DNA of 64,000 nt from Bifidobacterium sp. ESL0690. GTDB taxonomy: Bacteria > Actinomycetota > Actinomycetes > Actinomycetales > Bifidobacteriaceae. The notes under the pieces were generated by a model. That model saw nothing but the letters and a program-made list of their open reading frames with translations. It was not told the DNA's origin and did no database searches. Shown in pieces: positions 10,098 to 12,398 of the stretch; positions within the stretch are counted from its first letter, which is position 1; each line of letters opens with the position of its first letter. The position numbers and the translations under genes are program-made. Location: assembly GCF_029392315.1 (NCBI RefSeq), contig NZ_CP113939.1:2294001-2358000 (forward strand), given 5' to 3'.

Positions 10098-11165
10098 CTA
10101 TTTCAGCGCTTTGCCCGCCGAACCCAACTCGACGCAGGCCTCGACCACGCGCTTGGCCATCGCACCCTCGGCCGTGCGTCCCCACGAACGCGGGTCATAG
10201 TAACGCTTCTCGCCCACCTCCCCGTCGACCTTGAGCACGGAATCATAGTGCTCGAACATGTGGCCGGCGACCGCACGGGTAAAAGCATACTGCGTATCGG
10301 TGTCGATGTTCATCTTGATGACGCCATAATGGACCGCCGCGGTAATGTCACCTTTCGACGAGCCTGAACCACCATGGAAAACGAGCATGAACGGCTTATT
10401 GTCATGTAAATCAGCATCCGTATAGCTGCTTCCCAACTTGCCCGCCTTTGCCGCGGACGCGACCTCGCGCTGAATCTCACCCAGCAATTCCGGACGCAGC
10501 CTCACCACCCCCGGCTTGTAGGCGCCATGCACGTTGCCGAAGGTGAACGCGGCCATATAGGCTCCCCGCTCCCCCAGCCCGAGCCTGCGAGCGACTTCGA
10601 TGCCGTCGGCCGGCGTGGAATACAGTTTTTCGTCGATATCCGCACGATGCCCGTCCTCTTCACCGCCGACCGCGCCAATCTCGATTTCCAAGACGGTGTG
10701 AGCTTTCGCCGAAAGGTCCAATAATTCTTCAGTGATATCAAGGTTCTCTTTGAGCGGCACCGTCGAGCCGTCCCACATATGGGATTGGAACATCGGCTCG
10801 TGCCCGTGCGCCACGTCGTCCGCCTCACGCGCAAGCAGCGGACGCACCCAGCCGTCGAGATACGGCTTGGCGCAATGGTCGGTGTGCAGAGCGATGGAAA
10901 TGTTCGGATATTTGGCGGCCACTTCGTGCGCGAACGCCGCGAACGCGAGCGATCCGGTGACGCGGTCGCCGACGCACTGCCCGGAAAAGTAGGACGCCCC
11001 ACCCACCGAAACCTGAATGATGCCGTCGGACTCAGCCTCAGCAAACCCCTGCAGCGCGGCGTTGAGCGTCTGGGTACTGGTCACGTTAATCGCAGGATAG
11101 GCATAGCCGTTGTGCCGCGCGGATTCCAGCATTTCACGATATCGTTCAGGGGTTGCAATGGTCAT
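10098..11165 (-). CDS. fba: Class II fructose-bisphosphate aldolase
   Basis: Zn-dependent cleavage or condensation of fructose 1,6-bisphosphate, 355 residues, the usual length of the long class IIA form. Motifs: YAYPAINVTSTQTLNAAL, ALHTDHCAKPYLDGW (catalytic Asp and Zn His), LEIEIGAVGGEEDG, FGNVHGAYKPG, LVFHGGSGSS and GVIKMNIDTDTQYA. Since bifidobacteria break down hexose by the fructose-6-phosphate phosphoketolase route, this enzyme probably serves gluconeogenesis and triose balancing. The ATG at 11165 begins the standard MTIATPERYREML N-terminus; a 24-residue upstream extension is open but lacks family similarity. Confidence 0.95.
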   Translation of the reverse strand: MTIATPERYREMLESARHNGYAYPAINVTSTQTLNAALQGFAEAESDGIIQVSVGGASYFSGQCVGDRVTGSLAFAAFAHEVAAKYPNISIALHTDHCAKPYLDGWVRPLLAREADDVAHGHEPMFQSHMWDGSTVPLKENLDITEELLDLSAKAHTVLEIEIGAVGGEEDGHRADIDEKLYSTPADGIEVARRLGLGERGAYMAAFTFGNVHGAYKPGVVRLRPELLGEIQREVASAAKAGKLGSSYTDADLHDNKPFMLVFHGGSGSSKGDITAAVHYGVIKMNIDTDTQYAFTRAVAGHMFEHYDSVLKVDGEVGEKRYYDPRSWGRTAEGAMAKRVVEACVELGSAGKALK

Positions 11166-11254
11166 GTTTCCATTATTGCCGCGAGCCTCGCCATTGACAT
11201 GCGGATTACGCCATCGCCGACACTTCGCCCATAACAAAATGAAAAATACTATGG

Positions 11255-11260
11255 TATAGT
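11255..11260 (+). promoter_or_regulatory. Candidate -10 box for the tRNA-like gene
   Basis: TATAGT lies about 55 bases before the 5' end of the tRNA-like element. The -35 region (about 11232-11237) is poor, so this is a weak prediction. Confidence 0.3.
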
Positions 11261-11314: not shown

Positions 11315-11382
11315 GGGGGATTAACTCAATGGTAGAGCCCGCCGCAAGGCGGAGATGCACGGTTCGATTCCTGCCTCCTCCA
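11315..11382 (+). tRNA. tRNA-Ala-like RNA with no anticodon loop (possible pseudo-tRNA)
   Basis: A 68-nt cloverleaf. Acceptor stem GGGGGAT pairs with 11375-11381 at six of seven positions and includes a G3.U70 wobble (11317 with 11379); the discriminator is A (11382). D-arm ACTCAATGGTAGAGC holds a three-pair stem and the G18G19 pair. The T-loop is TTCGATT at 11363-11369 with a five-pair T-stem and one bulged C at 11360. In place of a 17-nt anticodon arm there is a perfect 5-bp stem CCGCC/GGCGG capped by the GNRA tetraloop GCAA (11339-11352). Compared with a normal Ala(TGC) arm, three bases of loop are missing. CCA is not encoded, as in the nearby tRNA-Gly. It cannot decode as drawn. It is either a decayed tRNA-Ala or a non-decoding alanine acceptor. 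Confidence 0.6.
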
Positions 11383-11507
11383 CTTCCTTCTTCATCCGTT
11401 GAAGCTATAATCAATTTTCATCTCGCAATATCAAACAGCTCAAAACAAGAAAACCTTTGCATACCAATAGGCTGAAAAAACAACGGCTTGGAGATACTCA
11501 AAGAAGA

Positions 11508-11529
11508 GAGCGGATGACGGGAGTCGAAC
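11508..11529. repeat. att-like direct repeat, distal copy
   Basis: 22 nt matching 12327-12348 at 21 of 22 positions (GAGCGGATGACGGGA, then G or A, TCGAAC in outline). It is a displaced fragment of the tRNA-Gly acceptor and T-arm and includes the start codon of the small HTH ORF. Confidence 0.65.
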
Positions 11530-11681
11530 TCTACGACTCTCGCACCGTCACCGTCAACGAGATCGCCAGCCAATACAACGTCGGACGTACCGCCATCTAC
11601 CGCGCACTCGACAGCACCAAAGCCGAAAAGCAGAAGGAGGAAGTGCCCGACGCGGGTCGCCCCGTGCCGGGCCGGCCCTAA
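11514..11681 (+). CDS. Small helix-turn-helix protein, resolvase C-terminal type
   Basis: 55 residues from ATG 11514. The core SRTVTVNEIASQYNVGRTAIYRAL matches in outline the DNA-binding helix-turn-helix found at the C-terminus of serine recombinases and in small HTH_7-type proteins. A Pro-rich tail follows. The frame is open upstream to about 11457 without catalytic-domain sequence, so it may be a fragment. The start codon lies inside the att-like repeat and only a weak purine-rich site (AAGAAGAGAG) precedes it. It may be a leftover of the enzyme that inserted the element; function in DNA binding is inferred from the motif alone. Confidence 0.5.
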   Translation: MTGVELYDSRTVTVNEIASQYNVGRTAIYRALDSTKAEKQKEEVPDAGRPVPGRP

Positions 11682-12110: not shown

Positions 12111-12326
12111 GGCCTCGATGTTTGGAAACAAGCACTGGGGCCGAGGTGTTTCTGCCACATCACAGACCCACAGCAAACGAGCAACAATACAGCCGAGAGT
12201 TGTGCGTCCTTCCCATTCAGGCTATAAACCCAAAGAGAACTTTTGAATTGTCGCATCGGTGTTGCATCAGCTCATCATGCAATCAACAAAAAGCTTGAAA
12301 TCATTGGAAAATAAGGGAATCGTAAA

Positions 12327-12348
12327 GAGCGGATGACGGGAATCGAAC
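12327..12348. repeat. att-like direct repeat, tRNA copy
   Basis: Overlaps the 3' end of tRNA-Gly(CCC); matches 11508-11529 with one mismatch. tRNA 3' ends are the usual target of tyrosine-type integrases. Confidence 0.65.
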
Positions 12349-12398
12349 CCGCCTCTGAAGCTTGGGAAGCTTCCATTCTACCGATGAACTACATCCGC
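12328..12398 (-). tRNA. tRNA-Gly(CCC)
   Basis: 71-nt cloverleaf on the minus strand. Acceptor GCGGATG pairs with CATCCGC, the anticodon arm GAAGC-TTCCCAA-GCTTC gives anticodon CCC, the T-arm is GCGGG-TTCGATT-CCCGT, and the discriminator is U. CCA is not encoded. Confidence 0.95.

Follow-up and report, generated by a model that had tools for sequence, protein, structure and literature searches.

What use would a bacterium have for a tRNA-like RNA without an anticodon loop? The window analysed here, a stretch of 64,000 nucleotides from Bifidobacterium sp. ESL0690, contains an element in which a capped hairpin stands where the anticodon arm belongs (Table 1). We propose a gene in its own right, of single origin within one clade, whose non-decoding tRNA-Ala-like product would carry alanine outside translation. 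We put the probability of this whole proposal at roughly 45%, and the end use of the alanyl-RNA is our guess. Non-decoding tRNAs are already known; the literature we covered describes none of the stand-alone ones as devoid of an anticodon. A literature search conducted mostly outside subscription journals turned up no account of a bacterial tRNA-Ala that lacks its anticodon. A conserved stand-alone alanine-acceptor tRNA of this kind makes a separate aminoacyl-RNA pool in a bacterium directly testable.

Table 1. Features of the locus and of loci with a FemX-like gene. Positions are those of the window unless a locus is named.
Feature	Position	Strand	Remarks
Class II fructose-bisphosphate aldolase gene, fba	10098..11165	-	divergent neighbour of the element in 10/10 carriers
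Extended -10 box TGGTATAGT	11252..11260	+	weak -35 ATAACA at 11231-11236
Full 68-nt gene for the tRNA-Ala-like RNA lacking an anticodon loop	11315..11382	+	fold, Rfam match, alignment
5' acceptor strand GGGGGAT	11315..11321	+	G3 = 11317; U7 opposite C66
D-arm ACTC-AATGGTA-GAGC	11324..11338	+	includes G18 G19; 10-25 is A.C in the window copy
Anticodon-arm replacement CCGCC-GCAA-GGCGG	11339..11352	+	5 bp and GNRA loop; loop invariant in 10/10
Variable loop AGAT	11353..11356	+	
T-arm GCA-C-GG/CC-TGC, loop TTCGATT	11357..11374	+	bulged base = 11360
3' acceptor strand CTCCTCC and discriminator A73	11375..11382	+	U70 = 11379; CCA not encoded
tRNA-Gly(CCC)	12327..12398	-	convergent neighbour; found at 8/10 carrier loci examined
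FemX-like protein gene, first copy	L304:130-1227	+	
FemX-like protein gene, second copy	L305:1033-2025	-	

Structure of the element

The initial annotation had drawn a tRNA cloverleaf here, and its coordinates proved exact. The Rfam tRNA model (RF00005) gives a full-model match to the window element of 31.2 bits, against a gathering score of 29. The minimum-energy fold is a cloverleaf with the GCAA-capped hairpin at the anticodon-arm position, which agrees with the claim that a 5-bp stem and this loop replace the arm. The G3.U70 pair, A73, the GG of the D-loop and the TTCGATT T-loop, all named from the first, are found in the element. None of the ten copies, one in each of ten carrier genomes, has a canonical 7-nucleotide anticodon loop; all have the GCAA tetraloop. 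The bases of U8-A14, A15-Y48, G18-U55 and G19-C56, which we take to be the tRNA core contacts, are also retained in 10/10 copies.

The element has four irregularities that the initial annotation left unmentioned. Position 7-66 is U.C, nucleotide 26 is absent, and the 10-25 mismatch of the window copy is a G-C pair in 4/10 carriers. All ten carriers share a one-base bulge in the T-stem (GCA-C-GG/CC-UGC, where the bulged base is C or U), and no bulge like it occurs among the 45 distinct tRNAs of the element's own genome. Rfam tRNA scores run from 29.5 to 38.6 in nine of the ten carriers; the copy in G084 is not among the matches at E 0.1, and its minimum-energy fold is not a cloverleaf. ARAGORN, run on the window, called no tRNA at 11315-11382, so similar genes may lack annotation elsewhere. 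Given its composition the fold has an ordinary stability, which 35 of 200 shuffles equal or exceed (z -0.76), so folding gives no proof of the element. The proof is its conservation.

Conservation and selection

The ten copies have a mean pairwise identity of 95.0% (minimum 89.7%, 45 pairs), against 60.8% at the four-fold sites of fba in the carriers. The four-fold rate predicts 26.7 differences per pair of elements, and 3.4 are observed. Identity in the flanks is 48.7% over the 130 nt upstream and 29.9% over the 60 nt downstream. The element is less conserved than tRNA-Gly(CCC), at 99.7% in 8 genomes. Nine of its 68 columns vary, and seven of these nine are unpaired (hypergeometric p = 0.02). 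The one change in the anticodon-arm stem, from C to U in G084, still pairs as G-U. There are no compensatory base changes in the stems among the ten copies and no excess in the shuffle control; with no covariation, the stems are supported by the tRNA model and by the lack of damage.

We conclude from these alignments that the element is under selection and not decaying, and it is very probably a functional RNA. The initial annotation had considered random decay unlikely, and the gap between the element and the four-fold sites of fba bears this out. Close relatives were checked for absence or scrambling of the sequence, and the element is conserved in ten genomes of one clade. Decay of a tRNA is rejected, as ten conserved copies show no relaxed constraint. 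The loss of three loop bases through sequencing error is rejected too, since the GCAA loop is identical in ten genomes.

Distribution and origin

A covariance model built from the ten copies was run on 112 genomes of the genus. Ten of them score 94-103 bits (G000, G082, G083, G084, G085, G088, G089, G090, G091 and G092), and the next best score is 42.5. Of the lower matches, nine were read and proved to be tRNA-Gly(UCC) in eight cases and tRNA-Thr in the other. Family-wide, the element is in 10/189 genomes and 1/16 genera. The carriers include Bifidobacterium sp. ESL0682, ESL0784 and the MAG B-bin1 according to a pattern scan of GTDB, in which Bifidobacterium accounts for at least 3 of 112 stretches among the matches listed, below the ten carriers. 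A copy beside fba in other Bifidobacterium genomes was proposed as a check at the outset, and all ten copies in the 112 genomes are indeed next to that gene.

We sought fba in 30 of the 112 genomes and matched it in 28 (G086 and G096 gave no match). The resulting tree has 27 rows, as G041 was dropped for a split match; it is rooted at its midpoint, and the other 85 genus genomes are not placed in it. The carriers form a single clade in this tree with support 98/93, and the fork uniting them with the element-free G025 has support 100/98. G025 has fba and tRNA-Gly(CCC) in an unchanged order, and the stretch of about 1.07 kb that separates them does not contain the element. The simplest reading of the tree and gene order is a single origin in the ancestor of the carriers followed by vertical descent.

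A search of phages and plasmids gave partial matches only, in 6 phage records and 1 plasmid record (at most 75% covered, E of at least 0.1), and a mobile origin is rejected on that basis. Sixteen viral stretches share the 5' end of the element: 11 are ARAGORN tRNAs with normal or odd anticodon loops, and the other five have no ARAGORN call and, on visual inspection, do not include the 3' half of the element.

Promoter-like region and acceptor end

Upstream of the element, TGNTATANT is found in 9/10 carriers and TGNTATAGT in 8/10, at a distance of 61-64 nt in seven of these and of 50 nt in the eighth, G083. The box of G091, also at 50 nt, reads TGATATACT, and G092 has no -10 box upstream of the element. 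We infer from these boxes that the element is transcribed from its own promoter.

The identity bases mark the acceptor end as alanine-type. Among the 45 distinct tRNAs of the same genome (one palindromic false hit excluded), G3:U70 together with A73 is confined to the three isoacceptors of tRNA-Ala (UGC, CGC and GGC), which strengthens the annotation's claim of an alanine-type end. The first four acceptor pairs of the element are identical to those of the genome's tRNA-Ala. In the accessible part of PMC9976931 the bacterial alanine set is A73, G2-C71, G3.U70, G4-C69 and G20. The element matches the first four of these, invariantly in 10/10 copies. It has U20 in place of G20, and the tRNA-Ala genes of the same genome read GGT there too. 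We consider it probable that the RNA is alanylated.

Alignment scores against possible parent genes are nearly equal (Val(CAC) 63.5, Ala(CGC) 60.0, Val(UAC) 59.5, Gly(UCC) 58.5), so we name no parent. The initial annotation had suggested the loss of three bases from an Ala(TGC) loop. The tRNA-Ala(UGC) loop, TTTGCAA, does end in the GCAA of the element's tetraloop, but this fit is no proof. Together the conservation, the clade, the promoter box and the alanine acceptor argue that the tRNA-Ala-like RNA is real, passed on vertically and non-decoding.

Proposed mechanism

In our proposal an independent gene would have arisen once in the ancestor of the carrier Bifidobacterium clade. An extended -10 promoter belonging to the gene would drive transcription, and the transcript would lose its leader and gain CCA as a tRNA does; AlaRS would recognise G3:U70 and A73 and attach alanine. 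Since a capped hairpin replaces the anticodon loop the RNA should not decode, and the T-stem bulge common to the carriers may weaken EF-Tu binding. The alanyl-RNA would then have a use other than translation, and the likeliest one is to bring alanine to a putative tRNA-dependent transferase.

The T-stem also has the pair A51-U63, which is tied to weak EF-Tu binding in the non-proteinogenic tRNA-Gly of Staphylococcus aureus in the accessible text of PMC4052509. The same pair is found in 5 of the 45 tRNAs of the element's own genome, so we go no further than to infer weak binding. That the RNA is an alanine donor is a tentative idea, which we hold at odds clearly below even. The fuller version seems somewhat unlikely to us: a dedicated, genome-encoded alanine carrier that has lost its decoding half, is barred from EF-Tu, and gives the clade an alanyl-RNA supply of its own for a reaction outside the ribosome.

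Candidate partner enzymes

Which enzyme might take the alanine? The initial annotation pointed to peptidoglycan, and this idea has lost ground. A profile search gave a full-length FemAB (PF02388) match in 0/10 carriers. A FemX-like protein with weak partial PF02388 matches is present in five of them (G083, G084, G085, G091 and G092). The two copies read are 330 and 365 aa long, and the solved proteins closest to them in sequence are aminoacyl-tRNA-dependent peptide synthases, followed by a lipid II glycyltransferase and FemX. The protein was not found at the expected place in the stretches from the other five carriers. G082 and G090 have both conserved flanks without it between them. In G000 the stretch stops short of the second flank, and neither G088 nor G089 gave a flank match; for these three its absence is read from the weak PF02388 profile search. 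A FemABX-type transferase is thus not found in every carrier. We reject FemAB as an obligate partner, with no full-length match in ten carriers and the FemX-like protein missing between its flanks in two.

MprF is a possible partner. It is present in 10/10 carriers and in 10/10 element-free genomes tested, and it is closer to the lysyl-type 4v36 (64.6 bits) than to the alanyl-type 4v34 (37.9 bits). MprF1 accepts minihelix-Ala according to the accessible text of PMC4052509. No carrier-specific transferase appeared among the few families tested. A LanB-type transferase was matched in 0/20 genomes by a search whose control likewise gave no match anywhere, so the zero carries no weight.

Alternative explanations

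The RNA could instead be a decoy or competitive inhibitor that binds a protein handling tRNAs (AlaRS, an anticodon nuclease, RNase P or a modification enzyme) and tunes or shields it. Such an RNA would be neither cut in the anticodon loop nor used in decoding, and any charging would be incidental. The retention of the tRNA core while the anticodon loop is gone fits this, and short-arm tRNA-like RNAs elsewhere in bacteria are often near slipin and RtcR genes. We still regard it as unlikely. Three 8 kb Bifidobacterium loci have no slipin-like or RtcR-like match, RtcB is found in 0/112 genus genomes, and G3:U70 with A73 would be unneeded unless the target were AlaRS.

It is quite improbable, in our judgement, that the element encodes a regulatory small RNA that keeps the tRNA shape mainly for processing and stability and works through base pairing or as a sensor of alanine supply. 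The promoter-like site of its own and the neighbouring tRNA-Gly(CCC) on the opposite strand speak for this reading. Against it, conservation is poor in both leader and trailer, and where the element is unpaired its sequence is tRNA-like. A T-box reader needs an anticodon, and this also counts against a regulatory role. The Bacillus cereus pseudo-tRNA, as far as the accessible text of PMC3399842 goes, counts in its favour.

A dead tRNA pseudogene, or an attachment-site scar beside the integration site at tRNA-Gly(CCC), is very improbable: the element does lie near a tRNA with integration signs and has a low tRNA score, but it keeps 95% identity despite diverged flanks, sits at the same place in ten genomes, has intact stems except at 10-25, and has a 3' end that does not recur in the window even when up to 3 mismatches are allowed.

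Comparison with known systems

In its presumed mode of action the element resembles a tRNA decoy or an aminoacyl-tRNA that is sequestered, but it lacks at least one defining feature of every named family tested. The tRNA-like domain of tmRNA has no anticodon. What it would share with the element is an alanine-charged tRNA end, described for tmRNA in the accessible part of PMC11090510, but tmRNA has an mRNA-like domain and the element, at 68 nt only, has none. We reject the element as a tmRNA substitute, since tmRNA is present in 20/20 genomes tested.

The S. aureus non-proteinogenic tRNA-Gly is withheld from translation and has the A51-U63 pair. In the accessible text of PMC4052509 it has A49-U65 and lacks G18-G19, whereas the element has G49-C65 in place of A49-U65, keeps the GG and has no anticodon loop. 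The element also departs from bacterial glycine identity (U73, C2-G71, G3-C70) with A73, G2-C71 and G3.U70. The B. cereus pseudo-tRNA (tRNAOther) is another tRNA-shaped RNA with a presumed role outside translation. In the accessible text of PMC3399842 it keeps a Trp anticodon, whereas the element has an alanine-type acceptor and no anticodon loop, so the analogy drawn in the initial annotation is poor. The same text has it poorly charged with lysine in vitro and perhaps part of a larger regulatory RNA.

In the short-arm tRNA-like RNAs near RtcR and slipin genes the anticodon arm is also cut to a short hairpin, sometimes with a GNRA loop. These differ in that several are arranged in tandem and, on visual inspection, have acceptor stems that are short. 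No RtcB match occurs in Bifidobacterium, and the element is rejected as a member of an RNA-repair array for this reason.

Other observations

The 3' end of tRNA-Gly(CCC) is directly repeated in the window (11507-11529 and 12326-12348, 22 of 23 bases, 819 bases apart), perhaps as the remnant of an integrated element. A 74-aa ORF at 11457-11681 has a sub-threshold match to a resolvase HTH (20 bits against a cut-off of 23.8). A palindrome of tRNA-like halves at L196:1477-1535 (G000:C1:425476-425534) is called tRNA-Ala(TGC) by ARAGORN and scores 31.3 bits with the Rfam tRNA model; it is probably a false tRNA call.

For the short-arm tRNA-like RNAs of other bacteria (pattern-hit loci L037, L025, L020, L058, L085, L119, L115, L041 and L027), a retroelement reading was dropped. 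A 5-bp stem with a loop of 3-6 nt occurs in 57 of 110 pattern matches, with GNRA in 21 of these. Band_7/slipin genes are near 9 of 11 loci scanned with Pfam, and RtcR is near two. Local tblastn on 109 non-Bifidobacterium loci found a slipin-like gene in 69 and an RtcR-like gene in 30; the slipin-like genes are at 42/56 loci with a short hairpin versus 27/53 without. These RNAs are possibly a class of tRNA mimics linked to RNA repair.
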